A stretch of DNA of 64,000 nucleotides from Theodoxus fluviatilis (taxonomy: Eukaryota > Mollusca > Gastropoda > Cycloneritida > Neritidae). Below the pieces are notes generated by a model, which saw only the letters and a list, made by a program, of their open reading frames with translations, had not been told where the DNA came from and searched no databases. Location: positions 73,261 to 137,260 of the forward strand of contig JAWQFJ010001141.1 in NCBI GenBank assembly GCA_034096865.1, written 5' to 3'. Positions 3,001 through 60,717 of this stretch are shown here, piece after piece. Numbering within the stretch: position 1 is the stretch's first letter; each line of letters begins with the position of its first letter. A program made the translations under genes and the position numbers.

Positions 3001-6000
3001 CAAGTGATGTGCATATACACAACTGCTGCATAGCCTCCTGCATCCACCAACCAACGATTTCAAATTTAGTGACCTCATTCACCAAATCAGCCCGATCCAA
3101 ATTTCAAGAAGACTGAAGCAGAAACATGCTATTAAACATTCTGAAAAACCAAGAAACTATCAAAGTTGTGTCTGCTTTCTTTCTGCAAAGTCAGGTAGCA
3201 GGTGTGATTCTGTTTAAGCAACACTGTTCGGAGCAGAGTTAGCCATCATGAGTCGTTTCCTCCTATTTACTCATACATACATGTACATGTTAATAGCAGG
3301 CGGAGGAAAAATATGTTGATCCAGAAGCCATGGGTCAGGTGGAGGAGCAATGCAAGGATGAGGAGATGGATGTAACAGAGCTAAATAACCAGTCACTTCT
3401 GCAGCAGGCTAGAGACAGCACTGACCTCAGTGTCCAGCACTGTGGCAAGGACCTCAGTGAGGGAGGAGGCAAAGTTGGGGGTGGAGAACTCTGCTCCAGA
3501 CATCTCTTCCAACAAGCTGCCTGACATGTAGTGCAGAATCTTCCTGATCAGGTTCAAGCTGGCCTTGCTGCAACACACAGACAGCAGTGCTTTGTCAAAC
3601 ACACGATAATTCACAACAGATTCTTTATGCAGACATGCATCAGGTAAAATATATTTCCCTGCACATTAAAAATGGATGATGTGAAATAAATAAGCACAGC
3701 CTCATCACCAATATTCAGTTAGTACAGCTTATGTCCACAGACTTGTTAGCAATTCATAAGGCTTTCAAAATGAGATATGCACTGCAGATTTACCAATGAA
3801 ACTTAGCTAGCAAAATATAAAACTGATAAGTCATGCCAGAGAATTTGGGGGCCTAGAACCCACTCATCTCAAATCCTTTCCATAGTACTCAGAAACAGAA
3901 ATCCTGAACTCTATGACTTTGCGTACTCAAGATCAAAAGAAGAGGTTACATGCACCCGTCTTGATGAACCTTCCACATCCATGCACACCAACAATTCAAC
4001 GATAATTTCACTGATATTAATAAGAAACAGCCATGACTACTTAAAGCATTGGAGCTGTGGTTCCACATATCCAGAGAACTATAAGCTTACCAAGCCAACT
4101 CATATACACATGTCTACACCAAGTATTGCAACAAGATAACACAAGACATCAAAAACAAAAAGGCTTACTCTGATGGATTGATAATATGCATGTAGGCATG
4201 CATGTTTGTGTGCGTGCACACACACATACATACACACACACACACACACTCAGAATAGATCCCAATAGACGGACTCACTGGACAGAGGTCAGCATGGAAC
4301 AAACACATGCACGCATGCACGCAAAAACACTCACACTCACACACACATTCACACACACACACACACACACGTGCAAAAGCACCGTCTAAACAGACCCCAC
4401 TGCAGGTGCCTACCGGACAGAGGCCAGCATGGAGCTGTGGAAGACTTGGGTAAAGACAGGCAGGAGGCGACGCACATACAGTGGGGCCACCTCGGGGTCA
4501 CCTCGGGGCTCCGAGGTGTCCATCTTTTCTGCTTCGTTGTTCTCCTCCTTCCTCTCCTTCTCCAGCTCCCCCTGGCCCCCTGCCACAGAGGCAGCTGCCC
4601 CTGCTGTGCTCTCTCGGCTGACAGGCACCATCCACTCCCCTGTGTTGGCAGGAGCAGGACACCAGAGGCAAGAATGAGGTGCTCACTCCAGCTAGGACAT
4701 GGAGTTTGCGTGTACTTCATACAGGACGCCCCATGCCACCCATCTCCATGCCTTGCTGCCATTCCCACACCATTCCCACACCATCCCAAGCTGCCTGCAA
4801 CATCCAGCTATACTCCCACCATGTTTTTCTCCCCAAGCTGCCTGCAACATCCAGCTATACTCCCACCACGTTTTTCTCCTATAACTCACTGTTTTAACTT
4901 CAGTGACCATGTGAGGAATGACAGGCAACTGCAACAGGCTGTGAGTTTCAATAAATGTGACATTAATTTTTTGTATATTATGCACCAAGACATGATTAAT
5001 TCAAGTATGATGTCCCAGTTCATCATGTGATCGCTAGACTTTGAACAAAGAGGAGGAAAATGTAGTAGGAGAAGCTGGACATTGCTGACAATTAGGGACT
5101 GAATGACTACAAGGTAATGTAACATTATTCATCTTTTCTCCATGCATTGAAGCCCAATTTCAGGGCATTTTCGCCATTCCCTGTCTACAATGAAAGCCTT
5201 TGCCATGACCAGGTTTTGTTTTTGCATAACCAGGATTATAATTCTAATGTAGAAATCATAATAATTGATTTAAAATGTGCTCCATGCTTCCGGATTCTCT
5301 GATTTAGTGAAACAATACATAGAAGGATTAGGAAACATAGAGAAAACTGCATGATATCAAAACCATGATTTTTACCTCATGTGTTCTATACTCTGCACCA
5401 TACCATCTACATGACAAGAACAAAAAGGTTGATCTAAAACCATAAAGTTTGCATTATCTCACCTGTACTGTGAATTAAACAGATACATTTGTCAATGGCA
5501 ATGCTTGTTCGTACTGCCATGCCCGTGTGCTCACCTGGCGACTGCAGAATAGTGATGACATCTCGGTGACCTTCATCCCCACGCTCCCGAGCCTTGTCCA
5601 GGGGCGTCTTGCCATCCTCGTCCCTGAGGTCAGGGTTGGCACCGTAGTGTAGAAGAGTCTGCAAATGCCATGTCACAGTGTAATCTGAGGAACTGATAAA
5701 CATAGTCAAATGCCATCTCCAAGGGAAGAGCAATGATTCTTCTAGAGACCACACACTACCATAAGCAAGACACGCCATCTACTTCATGAGTGCCAAAGCT
5801 TTAGGAGTGTGCAATGCTAGCATGTATTATCATCATCCCTACACTTGTACACTATTCCCTGCATGGACTTTTGAAATGTTATTTTAAACAGGGAAAAGTT
5901 CATTTGCGCCAAAATACATAGTAGCAAGCAAGTGACAAACAGGGCAACAACAAGGGCAAAGCCCATACGACTCACATGCTTGACCTTGACCTTTATATGA

Positions 6001-9000
6001 CCTTGACCTTCAGGTGACCTTCAAGGTCAAGGTCAAACAACTAAACCTACCAATGACATCATACACTAAGAAATGCTTTACACATTTTTCCTACCAAAAT
6101 ACATGTGACCTTGACCCAAGGTCAAGGTCATCCAAGGTCATGCAACACAAAGCTGTTAATTCAAGACATAGGAAGCACAATGGTACTTATTGGCACTTTC
6201 TACCATGAGATATAGTCACTTTTAGTGGTTCACTACCCCATTTTGGTCACATTTCATAAGGGTCAAAGTGACCTTGACCTTGATGATATGTGACCAAATG
6301 TGTCTCATGATGAAAGTACAACATGTGCCCCACATAATTATTAAGTTTGAAACAGTTATCTTCCATAGTTCAGGGTCAAGGTCACTTCAAAACATGTATA
6401 CAATCCAACTTTGAAGAGCTCCTGTGACCTTGACCTTGAAGCAAGGTCAACCAAACTGGTATCAAAAGATAGGGCTTGCTTTGACCTATATACCACTTGT
6501 AGCTAAGGTCACCATTCTCAATAACATGGGAGAAAATTGGGAAAATGTGAAAAATGACTGTTTTTGAGACCACATTTATGGCTCCTGTGACCTTGACCTT
6601 GAAGCAAGGTCAAGTCACTATGTATGTTTTTTGAGGCCTTGTCATCATACACCATCATGCCACATTTGGTGTTGATAGACTTAATAGTCTCAGAGAAAAA
6701 TCCAACGTTTAAGGGGAGGTGCTGGTGAAATGGAAAACTTTTTTTGTTTTGATTTTCATTTAATCATTACTTATGCAATATCAAGCATGCATATAAAGGT
6801 AATTACAGTAAAAAATTCAAGTCAAAAAACTGAAATGTTGACTTAGAAATAGCAATTTTATTCTCAAAATTGCACATTTTTGGGCAACAGTGTAACACAG
6901 CAGACAGTCTTTAACACAGATTTGTTTTTATCACTAAGTACCTCAATATGTTCTTCAATACCTGACAGNNNGCCAATAGCCTTACCCATCTCACTCACAA
7001 ACGTCGTGAAAGCTGGCCTTTCTTAGCGATAGAAACTGCTCTCTCATTGGATAGAAGTTTGAAGAGATACATGATCTGTCAGTGCACTTTGTGGAGGGAT
7101 TGCAGGGCTATCTAATGGTATCAAACTCAACTACGATCGCTCGCTCTCTTGTGGTTGAAATGCTGCGTCAAAAGCACGTTTTTAGCATCGATCTGTTGAT
7201 GTTTTTTCTTTTCTGACGCACCCCCTCAGTTGATTTAAGGCTGATAATACTATATTTAGACATAATCTAGACTAAATATGTTTATTTCATCATAGTACGG
7301 TGATTGGAGAATGCAAAGAACACAAGAACCAAAATTTGATAATTTTGTCGTTATGGACTCAAAATATCACCCGCACCTCCCCTTAAGTTTTTTACGCCCG
7401 GACGGACGGACGCCCGGACGGACGCCCGGATGGACGGACGGACGACACGGCTCAGTACATAGACTCACTTTTGCTTCGCATGTGAGTCAAAAATGTAGAT
7501 GGTTTAACATCTCAATGAAAATTTTATACTTCAAAAACAGCATGCCGTCAAATGTATTATCTCACATGGGGGGTGGAAATGGGGGTGGGACGAAGAAAGC
7601 ATGAAGTGAGTCACACTGTTCTCACCTTGACTATCTGAGGTCGGCCAAAGCAAGCAGCATAGTGTAGAGATGATGACCGCAGCCCCCTGTTGACATCTGC
7701 CCCTCGCTCACACAGAAACTCCACCTGCCCGTCCAGACAAAACCAAGCAGTCAGGCACAGAGTCTCTGCACCGCCCTTCCTTCACATTCACAAGTAATAG
7801 CACTTCAAGCACAGCAATCATGGACGATCTAACCACTGAACATTGCACAGCTCAATGAGAACACCCAACATGTTCCGATTCAGAATGCAGCTGACCCAAG
7901 CTTCCATACAGCAGAGAGCTGTTCTTTCTCTCCAGCAACTATGTCATAGCGCTCCTTGTACAGAGAGCACACAACAAAAAGTGGTGCTGATACTGCCTCC
8001 TGCCAAGCAGTGCTCATGAAGCTCTCCAAAAGTATCTGTACTGCTCCTTCATCAAGTCACATTTCCCACCACATGGTACACCAGAAAATGGCATGTCAAA
8101 CTTATCAGTTGCTGACCAATCTACAGATCACCTACATCCAAATTCCATGGGTGTTCAAACCATTCGCCTGCTTGCCCCAGGCGAGTTGACATTTCCTCGG
8201 GCTAGAAAAAACTGCAGGGTTGCTCACCCAAAGGGCTTGTAAAAACCTGCAGGGTTGCTCACCCAAAGGGCTAGTAAAACAAGAAGGGCAAAGCCCATAC
8301 GACTCACATGCTTGACCTTGACCTTTACATGACCTTGACCTTCAGGTGACCTTCAAGGTCAATGAACTACACCTAGCAATGAGTGAATGACATCATACAC
8401 TAAACTAAGAAATGCTTTACACATTTTTCCTACCAAAATACATGTGGCCTTGACCCAAGGTCAAGGTCATCCAGGTCATGCAACACAAAGCTGTTAATTC
8501 AAGACATAGGAAGCACAATGGTGCTTATTGGCACTTTCTACCATGAGATATGGGCACTTTTAGTGGTTCACTACCCCATTTTGGTCACATTTCATAAGGG
8601 TCAAAGTGACCTTGACCTTGATGATATGTGACCAAATGTGTCTCATGATGAAAGTATAACATGTGCCCCACATAATTATTAAGTTTGAAACAGTTATCTT
8701 CCATAGTTCAGGGTCAAGATCACTTCAAAATATGTATACAATCCAACTTTAAAGAGCTCCAATGACCTTGACCTTGAAGCAAGGTCAACCAAACTGGTAT
8801 CAAAAAATAGGGCTTACTTTGCCCTATATACCATGTATAGGTGAGGTATCCAATCTCAAAAACTTCAGAGAAAATTGAGAAAATGTGAAAAATGGCTGTT
8901 TTTTAGACAACATTTATGGCCCCTGCGACCTTGACCTTGAAGCAAGGTCAAGTCACTGTGTATGCTTTTTGAGGCCTTGTCATCATACACCATCATGCCA

Positions 9001-10086
9001 AATTGGGTGTTGATAGACTTAATAGTCTCCGAGAAAAATCCAACGTTAAAGTTTTCGGACGCCCGGACCGGACGCCCGGACGGACGAAACGGGTGAGTAC
9101 ATAGACTCACTTTTGCTTCGCATGTGAGTCAAAAAAAGAAGAAGAAAAAAGATAATAAAATTAGGCGTTTTGATGCTGTCATCCTTAATTCCTTGGCTAC
9201 ATGAGTGGATTACAACAGTCATGTCCTCTGCTGCAATGTCCGCCATCTTTCTCGTTATTCACTGCTGAGTAGATTTCTCATCACTTGTTTCACGACAAGA
9301 ATGAATTTAATCTTCGATGAATGCATTTATGAAACATAATGCAAGTAAGCCACCGCCAGTTAAAAGCAGAAACAAAGTGACCAAGAAAAGAAAGAAAGAG
9401 ACAAAGACTACGAACACAAGACACAAACTCCTTCATTTCAAGATAAATTGTACTACAATTCAGACAGGCTGATAAAAATTTTGCAGGCTGGTAAATGTTA
9501 CTCACAACTGGCCCAACAGGCTAGTAAACAAAAAACCTTTTAAGCACCCCTACACCCTCCATCTTTACAATGAAAGTTTCCCGTTACCATCAACTCAACA
9601 AATTCCACATGAAATATTGTTTTTTTCTATTGTCATCCCCAAGCATGTCATATAATTCATTCCAGGAAGTCAACTCACCATTTCCTTGGTGCCAAAAGCA
9701 GATGCCCAGTTCAGCAAAGTCTGGCCCACATCATCCATGAAATTGACCTCAAACCCTAGAGGACAAGGCAAGTTCTTCCATGGCATCATCATCACATGGC
9801 AACAACATGAAAGCAAAGACATTACACAGAAAGCCATGGAACTCCTTCATAGCCTTCATGTAAAGAAGAGAGGATGCGAAGGAGTTGCATCCCTTGAAAA
9901 ACATGGCAGTTATGCACAGGGAGCTTAGTTTAGTAAGCACACTTTCATTTATGAAGTGAAGGAGATCGATCACCATAACTGTACTTTAATGACATCTGAA
10001 ATGTCCAAATCCCTTATGCAATGATTTTTTTAAATGACAGAAGGTTTTCCGTTTGTTTTTGTTTTCTTTTTCGGAGGGGGTACTGC

Positions 10087-10149
<63 letters not shown>

Positions 10150-13100
10150 ATGTCAATGATCCATATCCATTCCTCCTGAAAGCACAATCCCCTATCCTTT
10201 GGTCATTTCACAAACAACAAGAAGGGCAAAGCCCATACGGCTCACATGCTTGACCTTGACCTTTATATGACCTTGACCTTCAGGTGACCTTCAAGGTCAA
10301 GGTCAAACAAGTAAACCTATCAATGACATCATACACTAAGAAATGCTTTACACTTTTCCTATCAAAATACATGTGACCTTGACCTTGGGTCATGCAACAC
10401 AAAGCTGTTAATTCAAGACATAGGAAGCACAATGATGCTTATTGTCACTTTCTACCATGAGATATGGTCACTTTTAGTGGTTCACTACCCCATTTTGGTC
10501 ACATTTCATAAGGGTCAAAGTGACCTTGACCTTGATGATATGTGACCAAATGTGTCTCATGATGAAAGTATAACATGTGCCCCACATAATTATTAAGTTT
10601 GAAACAGTTATCTTCCATAGTTCAGGGTCAAGGTCACTTCAAAATATACATGTATACAATCCAACTTTGAAGAGCTCCTGTGACCTTGACCTTGAAGCAA
10701 GGTCAACCAAACTGGTATCAAAAGATAGAGATTACTTTGCCCTATATACCATATATAGGTCAGGTATCTAATCTCAAAAACTTCAGAGAAAATTGAGAAA
10801 ATGTGAAAAATGACTTTTTTAGACAACATTTATGGCTCCTGCGACCTTGACCTTGAAGCAAGGACAAGTCACTATGTATGTTTTTTGAGGCCTTGTCATC
10901 ATACACCATCATGCCACATTTGGTATCGTTAGACTTAATAGTCTCCAAGAAAATTCCAACGTTAAAGTTTTTGGACGCCCGGACGCCTGGACGGACGAAA
11001 CGGGTGAGTACATAGACTCACTTTTGCTTCGCATGTGAGTCAAAAATCTTGTTTCCATCAAATGCCATGATTATTGTATATCCTGCATGAGGCTAGCGGC
11101 TGCTGGGATATTTTCATCTGTTATGTAAACAGAGATAAGAAATTGTGTTCAACTTATCATTCTGTCTCTTTGGGGAACATAAAAACTATTTGATGGCACA
11201 ACTGTGGTTGTATCGAGCATTTGAACAAGAAATTGTGCTGCAAAATATGCTGCTGTGCCTCTTTCGTTCAGTCACAATTGCCATGCTGGCCACCCTATCC
11301 CCCAACAAGGAAAAAAACCTCTTGACACCCCATTTCTGCTGTTTCATTTGAAGTTTAAGTCTTTCTCTGTAACATTTTTTATCAAAGAACTGCTGTGCTT
11401 TGCTTTATTCCAATAATTTCTCAAGCAAAAAAAGTGGTTGTATCAATCATTTTTCATTTGGAAACCTTGAAAAATTTTCCAGGTCAGAGGTATTGTCTCA
11501 ACACTAAGGGAAAAAAAAGAAGAAAAACCTTATTAAGATGAAGACAAATTACAAATGAGAAGAGCATCAGCCTTTCAATTTCATCTAACAGCCTCTACCT
11601 TTCCTAAGGAATGGCAAATATCCACAGACACATATTTCATATACCATCATGCTCAACGACATTGCTTACCATTGTCAATTGCATCAATGAGTGCGTCCGT
11701 ATCCTTGCTGCGGATGCAGTCTATCAGTTGGCGGTGAGAACGTTCGCCTGCAGAGTCTGTGCGGCGAAGGCCTGTCAGACGGTTGGTCATGGTGGACACG
11801 CCTGACTTGGGCAGAGCCTTGCGTCCCTCAAACAGCAGCACCAGGAGGAGGTCCACCAGCCGCATGGTGTCCAAGCAGCACCTAAGAAGGTGAGCAACCA
11901 TCAGTATCAGTATGAGAGTATTTCACAGCTTTTGTACTGTAATGCTACAGCTCTGCCCAAGATAATCACTTGACAGAACAAGTCTAGGGAGGGAACCAGG
12001 GAGCAGCTGAGAGGTGACCAACACTATGTCATCAGGGTATTGACACCAAGAGACAGAGAGGTGGAGTGGCTGTGACTTCCCTGTCTGCCTACAGCTATCT
12101 GAGCAGCACTGGATGGTGCTAGTTGCTAACATTCACAGCCAGAGATTGCTTCCAAAGTGCATGCATTATCAGGCAAGTCTAACAAAGCACAGGCTTCACC
12201 ACTTCCAAATGGACTGTGCAGGCAGAAATGTGATATCTACACTGCTTTACTTCCCACCCCAAACCCTCTTTCCCCCTTCCACACATAAAAATGATAGCTG
12301 AGCACAAACTTGAATCTGAAGACACTTTCATGGCTAGAGCTTTTCATTAATAAATAGTGATCTTAAATGAAGTGGTGGCACGCAGGGCCTCACCGTTCTT
12401 CACCATGCAGCCCACTTTCAATAGCCTCAGGAAGTTTGGAGCGGAGCAGGTCGTGGGTGATGCCTGGGGAACCCCTGCACAGCGTGGACAGCAGGGAGAT
12501 GACGGTGGAAATGCCAGGACTCTTGGTCTCTGGTGTAAGGGCAGCAGCTGCACTGGGAGTGGCAGTGGCATGAGCCGATGCGTCTCCAACCTTGCGCAGG
12601 CGCAGCAGCAGTTCTTCCATCAAGCCATTCTTGGCCAGGGGAGCAGGGTCAATGCCTCGACGCGTGAAGCGATCAGCCAGGGAGGCAAAGCAACGCAGGG
12701 CACCATCGGATACCTGCAGGATAAATTAATTCATGAGGGAAAGTGAAAAGGGAAGACTGTAGTGGAGACAAAGAAGATGGGTGGATCAGAATAGAAGGAG
12801 CAAGGAGGAGCAAGGAGGAGGAGCAAGGAGTGAGATGATGGAGGAGCAAGTAAAAGGAGAAAGAAGAGCGAGGGCAGGGTTCATACAGGTTTTTAGATAC
12901 AAAATTCCATGACTTTTCCATGACTTTCCATGACCTTCAACAACATTTTCCATGACCTAGCGTACTGTGATACATGACAATTTTAAAGAGAAAAGTGTAT
13001 GGCGCACGACCAAACTCACGCACAATACACCCGTTGTAAAAAAAAAATCTAATTCTTTTTATTATTTTTACAGCAGATTGATTCAAAAACTGACAAATGC

Positions 13101-16100
13101 AGAAAATATTCAAACAAGTACTCCTTAAAATGATGATACTTTTTGTCCCAAATTGTCTGGTGCTTCAACGATTAACGCACGCTGAATGTGGTAATCGAGC
13201 ATGCGTCTACACAACGCCATTGCGGTCCGATGTACACACAAAAAGGTGGAAAATTTCCGCCTGTTTTCTCCTTTCAAGCGCACAATCCGGGCGCTAGACA
13301 AAAAGTAGATTCATCGTACATTAACATCGAAGATAGCGTAGGAAGGGGTAAATCTTGTAGAATTCGAGGGTGTCTGTACAAAATTGATCGGAAAAGCGGG
13401 AGTGAGCAAATTTTAACAAAATGTCCGATGACGTTCGAACTTTCATCCATAACTCGTCTTTCGATTTTCACCGGAAGTTCAAACATACACCGAACAAAAG
13501 AGCAATCTTTCCTCTAATGAGTAGTAAAGTTTCAACTTGATCAAATGAGAAACTTCGACGGACGAGTGTTTAGAAGAGACCAACCCGAGTCGCGAAATGT
13601 TAACTCCGTCGAGCCACCGCGAGTCGGTAGTGGCGGAGGGTGGTTTTTTAACGTAATCGGCTTGTATGTTCTCAGCGAAAATAAGACGGATTAACACAAA
13701 ACTACACGACACATGTTCTTGAAACCTTCTGCTTCATAAACAACTTTCATTCTTGTTTTTATTCACAATATTTTGTGGATTGTCCACAATTAGCCATGAA
13801 AGTGAAGTGGTATTGCCGAGTGCATTTTGGCTAGTACTGTAGTAGCGCAAAGATTTGATACAAATTACCACGGAATCCTACCACTAGTTAAAAAAAATTA
13901 GACAACTCAGAAAGACTTTCATCTTTCATGTTACATTGGTATTTTGTGTTATTGATATGTGCGAATCCTAGAAAAAGTGGATTCTATCGAACCGACGGCC
14001 ACTTCCGGTCTGATGAAATTTCTTCGAACGTCGCGTGCGGCGTCTATTTAGCACTCGCTGAAGGTCCCGAGTTCTACAATACTTTTTCCAATATGTGCAA
14101 AATATTGCAATAAATATCTTCCTAAATGATTGTTCTAGCATAAACTGAAACAAAAACCCCAATAAACTAACCTATTTAAGCTGATTTGTCTGTCAAAATC
14201 GCATCTGCGCCGTCACGCTCTTACTCGCCATTGTGTGATTTTGACGGTCATGCTATTTACCAAAATGGCGCTAATGTCTTCGAAATGGCTTAGAAATGAG
14301 CATATATGGCCATGGCTCAGAATTGGTGTCTAAAAACCGGACATTTATTTTTTTGTGACTATGTAGGTTTTGTGAACTGCAGTGGAAAAAGAAAAAGATG
14401 ACAAAGCCAACGCAACAAATTTGAAATGAAACGGACATTTATTGGCCACACAGTGGACGAAAACGTATTTAAACGTTGTTCATAACCCTTACATCAAGTC
14501 ACATGATTAAATTGATCATAAACAAGGAATTTAGGCCACATCACTTCAGAATTTCAGCCGATATTGATAAGCAAGCTACAGTAATAGGCTCTGCACTAAA
14601 ACTCTAGAAAATTGACTGAACCGAGCCGAAGAAAATAAAACTCTTTCTAGCAGTTCATAACCTTACAGCATTGAGAGCGCCCCTTGTTATAAACATCTAA
14701 AACTCATGGTCTTATCAGTCAAATATATGTTTAATTAGAATGCATCAACCAGCTAACACTGGGAGTAGATTTTAGAGTGGTCCTGCGAGCAATTTTGTTG
14801 AATACCAGGATGATGTAGCAACTTTTGTAAAAAAAAAGGTTTTACAGTGTACCAAAAGTAAAAAAACTAAAATATAACCCACATTAAAGAGCAAATCAAC
14901 TTAATCACCATGTAATGCAAAATGTGTTATCATGTGGCAATCATTTAGGGAAAATTCAAATTTCTACACCAACAGCAAACAGCAAAATCACTAATTGGTC
15001 TCATTTGTTCATAACTTTACAGCGGGACAAAATTAGTTTTTATGAATTGGTATCTAAATGCTGCATAGCTCAGACATGATTCATACACCCAAAGCACACA
15101 TATTGGATGAGGATAACAACAATGCCTTTGAATATCTAGTACTTTAAAACAATCACAAGTTATCACTAAAAAAGTATAGTAGTACATAACATTACAGCAC
15201 CAATGACCAATAATTCAAAATAATTGACAGCCACGCCTTTAAAATGCCCTAAAAATGTAAAGAAACAAGCTCATCCAAGTGACAGACCAAAAATAATGCA
15301 TTTTGAAGTTGTAAACACATTTTGGAAGGATATAGTAAGGCAAATAAGGAAATTGTTCATAACCTTACGACACGCAATGTTTTCAGACACAGGGGTTTGG
15401 AAACCCAAATTGTGATAAGAAATTAAAATTTGACCAACAGAGGTAAAAATGATACAAGGAACTGAACTAGAGTAAAAAATACTGTAGCAATGCTGATATA
15501 AACGATGATGCTTAAAAGTTCATAACTTTACAGCACAGTGGTTCTTTTACTGGAAAATCATCATGCCTAGTGGCATATGGCCATGGCTCAGAATTGGTGT
15601 CTAAAAACCGGACATTTTATTTTTTTGTGACTATGTAGGTTTTGTGAACTGCAGTGGAAAAAGAAAAAGATGACAAAGCCAACGCAACAAATTTGAAATG
15701 AAACGGACATTTATTGGCCACACAGTGGACGAAAACGTATTTAAACGTTGTTCATAACCCTTACATCAAGTCACATGATTAAATTGATCATAAACAAGGA
15801 ATTTAGGCCACATCACTTCAGAATTTCAGCCGATATTGATAAGCAAGCTACAGTAATAGGCTCTGCACTAAAACTCTAGAAAATTGACTGAACCGAGCCG
15901 AAGAAAATAAAACTCTTTCTAGCAGTTCATAACCTTACAGCATTGAGAGCGCCCCTTGTTATAAACATCTAAAACTCATGGTCTTATCAGTCAAATATAT
16001 GTTTAATTAGAATGCATCAACCAGCTAACACTGGGAGTAGATTTTAGAGTGGTCCTGCGAGCAATTTTGTTGAATACCAGGATGATGTAGCAACTTTTGT

Positions 16101-19100
16101 AAAAAAAAAGGTTTTACAGTGTACCAAAAGTAAAAAAACTAAAATATAACCCACATTAAAGAGCAAATCAACTTAATCACCATGTAATGCAAAATGTGTT
16201 ATCATGTGGCAATCATTTAGGGAAAATTCAAATTTCTACACCAACAGCAAACAGCAAAATCACTAATTGGTCTCATTTGTTCATAACTTTACAGCGGGAC
16301 AAAATTAGTTTTTATGAATTGGTATCTAAATGCTGCATAGCTCAGACATGATTCATACACCCAAAGCACACATATTGGATGAGGATAACAACAATGCCTT
16401 TGAATTTCGTGTACTTTAAAACAATCACAAGTTATCGCTAAAAAAGTATAGTAGTACATAACATTACAGCACCAATGACCAATAATTCAAAATAATTGAC
16501 AGCCACGCCTTTAAAATGCCCTAAAAATGTAAAGAAACAAGCTCATCCAAGTGACAGACCAAAAATAATGCATTTTGAAGTTGTAAACACATTTTGGAAG
16601 GATATAGTAAGGCAAATAAGGAAATTGTTCATAACCTTACGACACGCAATGTTTTCAGACACAGGGGTTTGGAAACCCAAATTGTGATAAGAAATTAAAA
16701 TTTGACCAACAGAGGTAAAAATGATACAAGGAACTGAACTAGAGTAAAAAATACTATAGCAATGCTGATATAAACGATGATGCTTAAAAGTTCATAACTT
16801 TACAGCACAGTGGTTCTTTTACTGGAAAATCATCATGCCAAGTGGCATAAATTGTCATAAAACAACCAAATAAAAGTATTTCAAATTTCCAAACACAGAA
16901 TTCACAAGTTATTGCAAAAAAAACTGGCCAAAGTTATCCACACTTCGATTCAAGAACAGTTTTGTATCAGTCTATCCATCTCTGTAATATTTGATATTTC
17001 ATTCTCATCTGTGATTCTCACTCTCCAGCTGTGATGAAAAATTAATCGAAAATGGAAAGACACAGCTCACACACAATCAAGAAAAAAAACACCATCAATA
17101 TCTGAACTAAAAGATGAAGACAAATGCACGCTTTGAAGTTCTTGTTGTGTAGTCACGGAGGACAGCCAAAATGTCACTCCGCTGGATAAAAAACTCAGGC
17201 ACTTGTTCTGCTGGCCACTTCCACCCGTCTGGGAAGCCGTTGACCTTCTCCAGGTACTTGCCCCAAGGGCCCTCCTCCGAGACTCTAGTCACCTGTAACA
17301 TCATCAATAAGTTCTTTATAGCTTGGGCAGGTTAAGGGAGTGGGGTTGGGGGAAGTGGGGTGTCTTTTCTATTATTTGTCTGAAGAAAATGTGGTAAAGT
17401 TATGAACTGTGAGACTGAGAAAACAAAAAAAATGGCAAAGCTTAACATTATAAAAGCCAGAGAGAAGTTGGAGGTTCTGATTTTTGCACAAAAAAGAGGT
17501 CACAGTTAGAAACATGTCCATTAAAATAAAGGGCATAACTTTGACCTTAGTTCATAACTCTACACATATCATAATGCAGACATCTGCTGTAAGGTTATGC
17601 ACTGAATATGCACAAGTAACTGACGCTAAAGGTGAGATTAACAGTTAGTTCCAGATTGTAAACTGGAGATAAGTTAAAAGTTTCCCTACAAAATAATACA
17701 ATCAATGGCATAGTGGAACATTTGGCCTTTGTTCATAACTCCACAGCAATAAGTGTCGAAGAACTTGCTGTAAGATTATGAACTACACCAGTTTAAGTAA
17801 CCCTACAATAAAATTTCAATCTGATCAACTAAGATGAAAAATAAACTTTGGATAATAAAAATTCCATCTAGTTTTCACAATTTAAACCTATAATGCTTTC
17901 AAAAATTGCTGATTTAGGGTCCGCAAGTGGCAGGCACATTTGTTGTTGTTGAAAAGTTATGAACTACATCGACATGAGATATTGCCGTGATTATCGAGTG
18001 ACAAAACAAGCGAATCACTTCCTTACTTAAAATTATAAGTGAAAGCAGGAAATTAACGATTTCATCAACAACTCTTCATGAAATAGTACTCCGAAAATCT
18101 GAGTTCATAACCCTACGACAAATCGATAACAAAAACTTATTTTTTACCCGTTGATTGTAAATTGAATTGGCTCCGAACCCGCCGAAACCACGTGTGCACT
18201 CGTTTGTGAAACAAAACAAGACAACAAGCAACAGTGCTGTTTGAGAAATAAATGAAATACAAGCAAATGTGTATGGCAAATCAGTTCATAACGCTGTCAA
18301 CAAAAGTTACAGCAAAACATTTACCTTCTTTCTCTTCGCCTGAGGCAGACATTGTCGATTTTTTTCCAAGCAGAATCCCAGGCTGTGATGCTTTCGCGTC
18401 GAAGACAACGGAATGATGACGCATCCGCATTTCTGGTTTAGTATCCATCCGATCAAAATGTAGTTCATAACTTTTCGTCTTACAGCAAACTCGCACATTT
18501 CACCAATGTAGACCAGTTCTGTGGAAACCATCGCGCTGACCTCAAATTTTAACCCAGCAAATGTTACTCTAACATAGTCTCAACAAAAACTTTGAGTAAA
18601 ATAATACACATGTACAATGGCGGATTAATAATAACAAAAAGAAGTTCCACTGTTTCGTTCACGACAATTCGTTATGAACTACGCATCGTTTTTTCTCGGC
18701 AAATGCGCGGCGCGTACGCAAAATTTTACGTTTGCAAAATAATCATGGAATTCGTCAACATTTCTAGAACCCGCAAACTTTCTTTTGAGGTGTTTAGGCC
18801 AGAGGAACTGCACAAAAAACCGATATGAAGACACCCATCGAAAAATGTCCGGTAAAAATCGGAAAAATACGGCCGATTTTCCGCAAAAAAATCATTGCAG
18901 AGAACAAACTAGCGACAACGGCAATTCATTTAAAGTGAAAACAGAAAGATTGACATGTCTTGGATGTAAAAATTCTCTTTCCGTTCACATTAAGCAATTC
19001 TGCTTTGAGAAATCTGCACTTGAATGCAGTGAGTCGGCAAAAAGTACCGTTCGACGCCATTTCTGAGCCAAGGCCATATATCGTTATCCCCTTCTTGAAT

Positions 19101-22100
19101 ATGATATATTTAAGCTATTCTAATTAAACCAGAACTATATTTGACCAAATTACGTTAGAAACAGCAACATTTTGAAACAGACATGCGGTCGCCATTTCGA
19201 TCCAGCGCCAAATGGTAAATAGCAAAATCGGACATGGATATCCAGCTGTTTCTTCTGAAGTTCAGCATTCAGGGACTCATCAAAGAGCAGCACCAGAGAA
19301 TCAGAAGACCGGGCCTTTGCCTTGAGCATGTCTAAGAAATGTGGCCCCAGACCAAAAGTTGTCAAGTACCGGGCTTTGCTTTCACTCAAGGCAAACTTGG
19401 AGGCGATGACACTGTCGGGAAACATGCGACGGAACAGCTCGTTCATTCCTTTGGTACTGGAGAATGAGAAGTGGGAGATGACCATTTTCAAAGTCCACAA
19501 AATTTCTGCTTTCAGTGTGTCCTCTGTTGTCAAGAAAGTGTCAATCCCAGTAGATCTACTGCCACTGCCAGTGGGTGCAGGCCTAGTTTCGACCGGCGTA
19601 GCAGCGCCAGCTGGAACCACCACCTTTGAAGCACTCTCTGTCTCAGCATTTTTTGCAGTTTGAACAAAATCTGATATTCGTGTTTGACGTTTGCTCTTTT
19701 CTTCTTGGTGTTTTTTAGCACGCGCCTGGTGCGCGACACCTTTCATGTGGCTTTTCAACGCTGCCGCTCCCATGTTGGATACATCAAAGTCTTTTTCACA
19801 AAATCGGCACTTTGCCATCCCATCCACTCTCGCTCGCATGACCCACTCACGGTATTCAGGGTCTCCTGTCCAAGAGTCTTGAAAGCGACACTTTCCAGGC
19901 ATGATGATAATCTGATTCTCAAAGAAACACTGCACCACAAACAAAACAATCTCTTTTCACTCTGTCCTCGTTTGAACCAACTGACCGGACCGGCGTGGAA
20001 ATGAAACGAGGTCACCTAGCCAAAGAACCAATCAGGAAGCAGAAGGCACACGAGCCTTCAGAATTAACCAATGGGATGCAAGGGTACGTTTTCCTGACGT
20101 GCTCAGCGTTTAAAATTACATTGAGAGTATCGCGCGAAGCACAGCCTAGAAAACGTCTTTTTTTCTTTCTTTTTTTTCTTTCTTAAATTCCATGACTTTC
20201 CATGACCTAAGTTGAAATTCCATGACTTTCCAGGCCTGGAAAATGAAAAATCAAATTCCATGACTTTCCAGGTTTTCCATGACCTGTACGAACCCTGCGA
20301 GGGGGAGGAAGATGGTGAGGAGGAGGAAGAGGAGGAGTCCTGAGTCAAGTCATTTCACACAAAGAAATTTAAGAAATTTCAAATAATAAAGAAAGGTTCA
20401 TCAGAGTACGAAAACCAAGTCCACCATAAAGCCACATGTACGCCTAAGGGACATCAAGTCAAAAAGAGTTGCTTCCCTTGAACCAGAATGCTTAGTCATA
20501 ACCCCAAAATTGTTCTAGGACATAGCAAGACGGCAACAATTTGATTCCTAGGGAAATTTCCGGTCATGGCAGGGAAGGGGTTAACATTGATGTACGATTT
20601 CCTGTAATGCAACATTCTACCTCTCCCACCATTCCCATACTGTCCCTTGCTGCCATTCCCATACTGTCCCTTGCTGCCATTCCCATACTGTCCCTTGCTG
20701 CCATTCCCATACTGCCCCTTGCTGCCATTCCCATACTGCCCCTTGCTGCCATTCCCATACTGCCCCTAGCTGCCATTCCCATACTGTCCCTAGCTGCCAT
20801 TCCCATACTGCCCCTAGCTGCCATTCCCATACTGCCCCTAGCTGCCATTCCCATACTGCCCCTAGCTGCCATTCCCATACTGCCCCTAGCTGCCATTCCC
20901 ATACTGCCCCTAGCTGCCATTCCCATACTGCCCCTTGCTGCCATTCCCATACTGCCCCTAGCTGCCATTCCCATACTGCCCCTTGCTGCCATTCCCATAC
21001 TGCCCCTAGCTGCCATTCCCATACTGCCCCTAGCTGCCATTCCCATACTGCCCCTAGCTGCCATTCCATACTGCCCCTAGCTGCCATTCCCATACTGCCC
21101 CTTGCTGCCATTTCCATACTGCCCCTAGCTGCCATTTCCATACTGCCCCTAGCTGCCATTTCCATACTGCCCCTAGCTGCCATTCCCATACTGCCCCTAG
21201 CTGCCATTCCCATACTGTCCCTAGCTGCCATTCCCATACTGCCCCTAGCTGCCATTCCCATACTGCCCCTAGCTGCCATTCCCATACTGCCCCTAGCTGC
21301 CATTCCCATACTGCCCCTAGCTGCCATTCCCATACTGCCCCTAGCTGCCATTCCCATACTGCCCCTTGCTGCCATTCCCATACTGCCCCTTGCTGCCATT
21401 CCATACTGCCCCTAGCTGCCATTCCCATACTGCCCCTTGCTGCCATTCCATACTGCCCCTTGCTGCCATTCCATACTGCCCCTTGCTGCCATTCCCATAC
21501 TGCCCCTAGCTGCCATTCCCATACTGCCCCTTGCTGCCATTCCCATACTGCCCCTTGCTGCCATTCCCATACTACCCCTTGCTGCCATTCCATACTGCCC
21601 CTTGCTGCCATTCCCATACTGCCCCTTGCTGCCATTCCCATACTGCCCCTTGCTGCCATTCCCATACTGCCCCTTGCTGCCATTCCCATACTGCCCCTAG
21701 CTGCCATTCCATACTGCCCCTTGCTGCCATTTCCATACTGCCCCTAGCTGCCATTCCCATACTGCCCCTTGCTGCCATTCCATACTGCCCCTTGCTGCCA
21801 TTTCCATACTGCCCCTAGCTGCCATTCCATACTGCCCCTTGCTGCCATTCCCATACTGCCCCTAGCTGCCATTCCCATACTGCCCCTAGCTGCCATTCCC
21901 ATACTGTCCCTAGCTGCCATTCCCATACTGTCCCTAGCTGCCATTCCCATACTGTCCCTAGCTGCCATTCCCATACTGCCCCTAGCTGCCATTCCCATAC
22001 TGCCCCTAGCTGCCTAGGCAAGGTGTGGAGTTACTCATTCAATTTTCCTTCTCCAAGTCATCACATGCTTAATTTAGGACAATGAGTCTGCAAAGTGCAA

Positions 22101-23645
22101 CTCATGAGAGAGCAGCTAGAGGTAACAACACCTGGATCACTATGGTGATGACAGCAAGGGGCAGAGAGGGGCAGTACTGGACAACTATCATTGAAACAGG
22201 CACTCCATCTGACATCAAAGAAAGTCTTCCATCTCGTAGCTGAAGAGCATGAGGGAGCTGCTGAACAGGCAAGCATGGCTCATGAAGCACCTGCATAATA
22301 GCCAGGAGCTAGTGCCTGGACCCTATCGCCCTCTGTGTAAGCAATGTAGCGAGAGGGCCGTCATCCATCACACAATACAGCTGTCAACCCAACGCCAAGC
22401 CAAAGTGACCAGAGAAGATAAGGTGCTGCTTACATATTGATCATCATGCTGCAGCAGGGTGGAAAGGGACTCGACACAGTTCTCCAAGGCAGCATCCTGC
22501 GGCTCCATCTTTCCACACAGGCGTGACACAACTGACATTGCAGAGTGCAGCGTATCCTTGTGCACCTGGGATCCGTGTTCCCTGATGAAGGTCAGGACGC
22601 AGTTCAGGCCTCCTGCCTCAAACACTGCACCAGACTCCCGAGTGCACACAAGCTCCAAGACCTGGGTAGAAAAAACAACACCATCAGTGCCTGATAAAGT
22701 AGAGTCACTGCCATATAACATTAAATTCATAGGAAATCGATGCCCCCAAAACCACCCATATGAATGGATTTCCTCGTAATATTTAATTTAGCACTCTATA
22801 GAGTGGTTCAACCAAAGCCTATGGTATTATAACATTACTGGGGGAATAGGAAACCCTTATCATTGAGATTCCAATTGAAAAGTATACAACTAGCCCATCA
22901 CCCCATCATACTGCTCATTATCCATCCCCTTACTCAGCTCCATGTAGATAGCCAACTGTCAGCTAAGGGCAGTCTTCTTCCTTCACCGCCGTAGCCATCC
23001 ATGCTTTTTGACAAATGCTATTTGCCTGAAAGTGTGTGTGTCTTTCATGGTCTTGTGTATTTACCCATTTATGTCCTGTATCACAATGATACACCCTTTT
23101 CACTATTCCCACACTGTCCCTTGTTGCCAAGTACAGGTGTAAATAGGCTCTCTAGTTCTACTGGGATTGTTCTGAATACAGAACTCCCCGCCTCTGTTCG
23201 TCACTCTACATCTCCCTCGACCTTTCGCTCTGCTCTCAAAGCTCACCTCTTCTTGAAATTGTTCCCGAATCCTGTCTAAGTATCTTCATCTTCCTCCCCT
23301 CACTGTTCTCTTTGTACTAGCTTGCCTAAGCCCCCTACCACCCTCCTGTCTCTCCTCCCCCTCTCCCCAGTTTCATGGTTAAGCGGTGACGCTGTACATC
23401 AGTTTGTCGAATGCCTGCAGTGAATGTCTGACTCCTATGTTATTAAGTTTATTAAGTTACCTTTGATGTGATTGACGGTTATTGTATATTGTAATGGTTG
23501 TTTATGTATGCGCCTTGAGCATGTCTTAACTCATGGTAAGGCGCTATATAAATCCACACATTATTATTATTATTATTACATCAACTAGGCAATAATGGAA
23601 CTTGTTATTGTTCCATCTACCCTATCCCACAATTTCACTGAAATC

Positions 23646-41502: not shown

Positions 41503-60717
<19,215 letters not shown>

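Follow-up and report, generated by a model that had tools for sequence, protein, structure and literature searches.

A bipartite motif on an approximately 180-bp lattice within a terminal-inverted-repeat element of Theodoxus fluviatilis, a candidate array of protein-binding sites

We analyzed a 64,000-nt stretch of the genome of the gastropod Theodoxus fluviatilis (contig JAWQFJ010001141.1 of assembly GCA_034096865.1, positions 73,261–137,260; hereafter the window, whose own numbering is used throughout). The subject of this report is a 4,780-bp element with terminal inverted repeats (TIRs) at 14302–19081, inside which an 18-bp motif recurs on both strands. The motif was strongly enriched in the element and confined to it within the window, its copies followed a lattice of about 180 bp, and the DNA between the copies showed no overall in-phase homology. 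At about even confidence, we read this arrangement as a selected array of sites that a single protein would bind, spaced one to a nucleosome length and carried by a non-autonomous TIR transposon.

Occurrence, form and spacing of the motif

Each site is bipartite: the 9-mer GTTCATAAC serves as its anchor, and TTACAGCA forms a second half that is less strict. An earlier note on this DNA had described more than 20 dispersed copies, and GTTCATAAC with up to one mismatch was present at all 22 of the positions it gave; six of these are copies arising from a 1,272-bp tandem duplication, which leaves 16 independent sites. Nearly all of the positions were accurate, except that the site placed at 15749 begins at 15750 and that the minus-strand 18-mers placed at 17395 and 17954 occupy 17390–17407 and 17947–17964. 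With the same tolerance, the window contained 36 matches to the anchor. The interval 14190–19240 held 24 of them, the 22 listed sites and two further matches, GTTTATAAC at 14686 and the copy of it at 15958; the remaining 12 lay in the other ~59 kb. Exact copies of the 9-mer numbered 19, with 18 inside the element (14478–18679) and one outside it (1579). The 18-mer with up to three mismatches was found 15 times against 0.07 expected from shuffled sequences, and all 15 matches lay inside the element, so that the confinement claimed earlier holds for this window. The sites span 14478–18679; the first lies 176 bp from the left end of the element, and no 9-mer with up to one mismatch occurs in the first 176 bp or the last ~400 bp. 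A text search of the literature with the 9-mer gave nothing relevant among the matches listed, and the motif pattern appeared in 11 viral contigs, as a single match in each and with no array.

Over the 16 independent sites, the anchor was identical in 16/16 at seven positions, in 15/16 at one and in 14/16 at one, a conservation that is partly built in because the sites were selected by the 9-mer. The second half, which reads YTACAGCA, is looser than the anchor and independent of site selection. The sole informative feature beyond the 18 bp was a weak TA immediately 5' of the anchor, so the edges of the motif are sharp. In two plus-strand sites the exact TTACAGCA is displaced, lying 8 nt (18463–18487) or 14 nt (18284–18314; GTTCATAAC, 14 nt, TTACAGCA) after the anchor instead of the usual 1 nt; of 30-nt stretches drawn at random from the region, with the real sites included, 3.5% contain an exact TTACAGCA. 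The second half has three mismatches at sites 17550 and 18103 and was not found at site 18671, where the best match had four mismatches.

The spacing had been described as irregular, with distances of about 35 to 600 bases. Once the six duplication copies were removed, same-strand gaps proved instead to fall near multiples of 180 bp. The left lattice (14478–15535, plus strand) comprises sites at 14478, 14653, 15007, 15182, 15355 and 15518, all of them repeated at +1272, with gaps of 175, 354, 175, 173 and 163 bp; its single gap is filled by a degenerate place, TTTTACAG, near 14833. The right lattice (17390–18679) has plus-strand sites at 17550, 17731, 18103, 18284 and 18463 (gaps of 181, 372, 181 and 179 bp) and minus-strand sites whose 9-mers start at 17399, 17594, 17775, 17956 and 18671 (gaps of 195, 181, 181 and 715 bp). 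About 600 bp holding a coding exon interrupt the array. With the 16 sites divided into three groups (left plus, right plus and right minus), the best common period was 180 bp (R = 0.963), whereas none of 1,000 random placements in the same spans reached this value (maximum 0.794).

The distances of about 35 bp, which had been counted as irregularity, are those of facing pairs at a single recurring offset: in the right half, minus-strand 9-mers start 44 bp after sites of the plus-strand lattice (17550/17594 and 17731/17775). Each of eight consecutive ~181-bp periods of the right half contains at least one site, two of them contain a facing pair, and the two outermost sites lie 14–17 bp away from the exact lattice. 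The facing pair at 17731–17783 forms a hairpin (RNA fold of 17723–17793, z = −3.26 on the plus and −4.15 on the minus strand) and the pair at 17550–17602 a weaker one (17542–17612, z = −1.96), while two other places, folded as controls, did not exceed shuffled sequences in stability (z = 0.97 and 0.93).

Origin of the array

The array had earlier been held to be neither a satellite nor a by-product of duplication. The second part stands in that 16 sites remain outside the duplication copies; the first is less secure, since the lattice leaves a decayed satellite open. This main rival, a real possibility if an unlikely one, posits a former head-to-tail array of ~178-bp units whose spacers have diverged while a short box resembling the CENP-B box was kept by selection or exchange; the ~180-bp spacing would then be inherited and not functional. 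This rival gains plausibility from molluscan elements, many of which carry such arrays: monomers of 160–180 bp make up 51.41% of the 100–500-bp tandem-repeat monomers of an oyster genome, in which the most abundant arrays sit in non-autonomous elements (PMC7492417).

Homology between the spacers was assessed after the motifs had been taken out. When 14 units (91 pairs) were aligned in phase, the result ranked 20th among 25 rotations, with ranks of 25/25 for left–left, 16/25 for left–right and 5/25 for right–right pairs. Compared with 100 shuffles each, 78 spacer pairs had a mean z of 0.11, and three had z above 3. Local alignment scores averaged 11.6, versus 9.8 for pairs drawn at random from the rest of the window; 3/91 spacer pairs scored at least 18, versus 0.87% of random pairs, and the best score, 22.5 between the 15355 and 18463 units, was reached by 0.5% of random pairs. 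A k-mer lag peak at multiples of 179 disappeared when the motifs were masked, and Tandem Repeats Finder (TRF) detected no array with a period of ~180 bp in 13800–19600. BLAST comparison of the element with the window returned the duplication, the TIRs and one further local pair (17522–17620 and 17697–17801, 68% over 106 columns). Overall, then, the spacers show no in-phase homology, and a slight homology, mostly in the right half, is possible.

A satellite origin draws on the right–right rank, the local pair, the three spacer pairs with z above 3 and the few elevated local scores; the other ranks and the TRF result oppose it, as do the strand switches and facing pairs, which are unlike a plain head-to-tail array. 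In simulations of a neutral satellite, the in-phase signal was lost only near one hit per site per unit (detected in 32% of 25 runs, and in none at two hits), a divergence that an unconstrained motif should not survive. The observed spacing is also tighter than that simulated (standard deviation of 5.8 versus 17.4 bp with an indel/substitution ratio of 0.1 and a mean indel length of 3.5; P = 0.0025), a conflict with the satellite that is gone at low indel rates.

A second alternative, which we consider improbable, is that the motif is a transposase-accessory site of the TNPA type, belonging to an uncharacterised TIR family and serving to pair the ends for transposition, with the ~180-bp spacing incidental. 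The 17-bp motif of the soybean element Tgmt* is likewise bipartite, 7 bp being invariant and the other 10 bp looser, and occurs in direct and inverted copies that form stem-loops (PMC2613891); the sites described here are bipartite, lie in both orientations and include the two hairpin-forming pairs. However, the repeats of Tgmt* are limited to its terminal 159 and 732 bp (PMC2613891), whereas ours run throughout the element and are missing from its outermost stretches; furthermore, the ends do not read CACTA, and no transposase-like open reading frame was recognized among the frames scanned.

Small RNAs, with the facing pairs as hairpin sources and the dispersed 18-mers as targets, are a very improbable explanation: the fold of 17723–17793 fits it, but of the four places folded only two are facing pairs, the second of them folding weakly, most sites are single, and no Rfam family matched at its gathering score. 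Chance or a by-product of the duplication, which would account for the six duplicated sites, is refuted by the 16 that are left and by the 18-mer count of 15 against 0.07 expected.

The reading as a selected binding-site array agrees with the earlier proposal of a functional array inside one element, which is supported by the enrichment, the sharp motif edges and the unrelated spacers. The non-coding DNA of the element would then be a series of sites recognized by a single DNA-binding protein, sequence-specific and probably with several domains, each site combining the GTTCATAAC anchor with a displaceable YTACAGCA half. With one site or facing pair per ~180-bp period, the sites could lie at an equivalent place in the linker of each consecutive nucleosome, and the bound protein may organize the chromatin of the element, either keeping it open (anti-silencing, VANC-like) or loading it for transposition (TNPA-like). 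The protein could be supplied by the small gene of the element, as proposed earlier, by an absent autonomous partner or by the host. A fuller version, in which both sequence and spacing are selected and a dedicated protein phases nucleosomes so as to prevent silencing or ready the element for transposition, is offered tentatively, and we regard it as doubtful.

Several points weigh against selection on the array or narrow what can be drawn from it. The grouping for the period test was chosen with the site positions already in view, and GC content carried no phase signal (p = 0.185). A constraint on spacing hinges on the assumed indel rates: over 15 parameter sets, the probability of a simulated spread no larger than that observed ran from 0.89 to 0. 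Rarer or shorter indels make the observed spacing ordinary, so that the evidence favors conserved sites more than it favors a constrained spacing. That the coding exon contains no sites carries little weight because a 183-bp exon is expected to hold about one. The array is known from a single copy of the element, and no DNA-binding protein was found for the sites. Finally, in an AAGGTCA-rich repeat of the same window, motif columns were variable in 11/133 cases versus 78/711 for the other columns (p = 0.22); the motif there varies about as much as the rest of the repeat, and such arrays therefore need not be under selection.

That comparator is a repeat family of ~850 bp with members at 5946–6713, 8276–9137, 10213–11046, 42811–43686 and 58489–59959. 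Its consensus contains 20 AAGGTCA half-sites in both orientations and CGGACGGACGGACG near its end. The dispersed short motif of the family is TCAAGGTCA, which we take to be an NR5A/ERR receptor site. One copy (58489–59704) has a ~607-bp tandem duplication of its own, with 99.5% identity, resembling the duplication in the element studied here.

Carrier element, small gene and surroundings

The inverted ends reported earlier were confirmed at 14302–14333 and 19050–19081 (32 nt, 88% match); they read ATATATGGCC. Without the duplication, the element would measure ~3.5 kb. The first duplication copy (14304–15574) begins 2 bp inside the left end and is followed in tandem by the second (15575–16846), both on the plus strand; the two are 99.45% identical, and none of their seven differences falls within a listed 18-mer. 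Both ends of the element adjoin ATATAT, which makes a target duplication of 2–6 bp possible yet indistinguishable from palindromic TIR sequence.

The element is flanked by the two parts of an interrupted miniature inverted-repeat transposable element (MITE) of ~194 bp, at 14251–14301 and 19082–19224. The outer ends of these parts are exact inverted copies of TGCTATTTACCA, which lies at 14251 on the plus strand and as its complement at 19213–19224. When joined, the flanks (with four additional bases, 198 nt) fold end to end at −55.4 kcal/mol (z = −5.8; none of 200 shuffles was as low), and 33 of the 61 base pairs bridge the two flanks. These features suggest that the element inserted at ATATAT into the MITE. 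The sequence CAAAATCG occurs exactly at 14194–14201 and 19223–19230, where the right copy overlaps the last two bases of the MITE; its interpretation as an outer target duplication is doubtful, because the left copy lies ~50 bp outside the MITE end.

A small two-exon gene had been proposed within the element, and of its parts exon 2 held up, having two homologs, while exon 1 had none. Exon 2 (17107–17292, minus strand) is supported as coding, includes the stop codon and is preceded by the splice-acceptor-like TTACAG; over 70 amino acids it is 77% identical to P0001 and 57% identical to P0002. The P0001 cluster comprises two sequences on two contigs and the P0002 cluster five sequences on seven contigs, and these contig counts suggest that the homologs belong to repeated sequence. 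A profile search with exon 2 retrieved nothing beyond P0001 and P0002. The proposed exon 1 (18325–18531, minus strand) is the sole frame that splices in phase; another frame of this stretch looks more protein-like but cannot be joined to exon 2 in phase. The homologs cover 48% of the 130-residue query, corresponding to the exon-2 part.

The proposed 130-residue protein matched no Pfam family at an E value of 1; for the small gene, Pfam returned only KH_2, below threshold (E = 0.04) and in the exon-1 frame that is out of phase. Among ten other frames from the element, DmmA-like_C (E = 0.069) was the single match, likewise below threshold. The best PDB result, for the exon-2 frame, had an E value of 1.4, and an AlphaFold model of an exon-2 homolog was unusable (mean predicted local distance difference test score, 50.8). 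The longest stop-to-stop frame in 14190–19240 is 107 amino acids. No transposase family was detected in a Pfam scan of 13 sequences, in which shorter, decayed and multi-exon genes were only partly covered; a non-autonomous copy could lack transposase genes in any case. No relative of the exon was confirmed in viral contigs, and none of the 80 stretches of prokaryote genome contigs that fit a pattern was confirmed. Phage records contained no DNA match to 15575–19081, no Rfam family reached its gathering score in 13800–19600, and no tRNA genes were found.

Immediately to the right of the MITE lies a hAT-type transposase remnant (19225–19956, minus strand), to which P0005 is 84% identical and in which a BED zinc finger was matched below threshold (E = 0.0072). 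The hAT homology stops at 19225, the MITE edge, in five of six inspected matches, the sixth (P0003) being aligned to 19202; the open frame of the remnant continues to 19150. A tblastn search with 64 proteins detected no continuation of hAT homology to the left of the element. A second hAT remnant, at 52881–53480, corresponds to the C-terminal dimerisation region (Pfam E = 5.3e-07). Minus-strand exons at ~12.7 kb and ~22.6 kb, which had no database match, are presumably HECTD1-like, and the exon at 22368–22787 matched no PDB entry at an E value of 0.001; the element thus placed probably lies within an intron of this gene. Two minisatellites have several frames open, a long one between the HECTD1-like exons (20526–21747) and another at 45617–46141.

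Relation to known systems

The earlier note knew of no described family with this layout. Similarly working layouts have been published in plants, where proteins bind arrays of short motifs inside CACTA (TNPA) and VANDAL (VANC) elements (PMC2613891, PMC5735166); among the papers listed by keyword searches, there was none in which each nucleosome length carries one site. The TNPA and VANC sites are the closest working analogues, a resemblance that does not assign the element to either group. CACTA elements such as En/Spm and Tgmt* (PMC2613891) share with it a TIR transposon carrying many copies of a 12–20-bp motif in both orientations with stem-loops, and, for Tgmt*, the division of the motif into one invariant and one loose part. 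They differ in their ends, which here read ATATATGGCC rather than CACTA, in their subterminal instead of ~180-bp-spaced sites and in their hosts, the present genome being that of an animal; no TNPA- or TNPD-like gene was recognized in the Pfam scan of 13 sequences. Two of the tested hallmarks of CACTA/EnSpm are missing from the element, namely CACTA terminal inverted repeats and a restriction of the array to subterminal regions. The site variant at 17766–17783 contains AATCTTACAG, the loose 10-bp half of the Tgmt* motif (PMC2613891), probably by chance.

VANDAL elements of Arabidopsis, with their VANC proteins, resemble the element in having a short motif that is dense in non-coding DNA and rare elsewhere (PMC5735166, PMC10398659), a distribution matched here by 18 of the 19 exact 9-mers in this window. 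VANC21 motifs are 9 bp long, share one orientation and often lie within recognizable tandem repeats, and VANDAL motifs are also present in introns (PMC5735166). In contrast, our element has unrelated spacers and sites on both strands, and neither a VANC-like nor a transposase-like gene was recognized.

Two further groups known from molluscs were compared. Helentron-type non-autonomous elements have satellite-like central repeats of ~160–180 bp, comparable to the internal period seen here (PMC7492417, PMC5139131). Their monomers align, whereas the units of our element share only the 18-bp box. Helentron and HINE elements are not known to have terminal inverted repeats, and the 32-nt inverted ends, together with the absence of alignable monomers (TRF; rank 20/25, with the weak right-half similarity at 5/25), set the element apart from this group. 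KolobokP composite-like transposons also have a direct repeat starting at a TIR-like end, of ~450 or 660 bp compared with 1,272 bp here (PMC9587614). Paired terminal direct repeats are absent from our element, whose one duplication is a tandem one confined to the left end; no Pfam family of a KolobokP DDD/E transposase or His-Me finger nuclease, which a non-autonomous copy could lack, was detected in the 13 sequences, none of the frames exceeding 107 amino acids.

If the reading as a selected binding-site array is correct, the control by an element of its own chromatin through dispersed motifs, as in the VANDALs of plants, would extend to animals and would acquire a geometric rule. As the motif is short, specific and repeated, direct isolation of the protein that binds it would be feasible.

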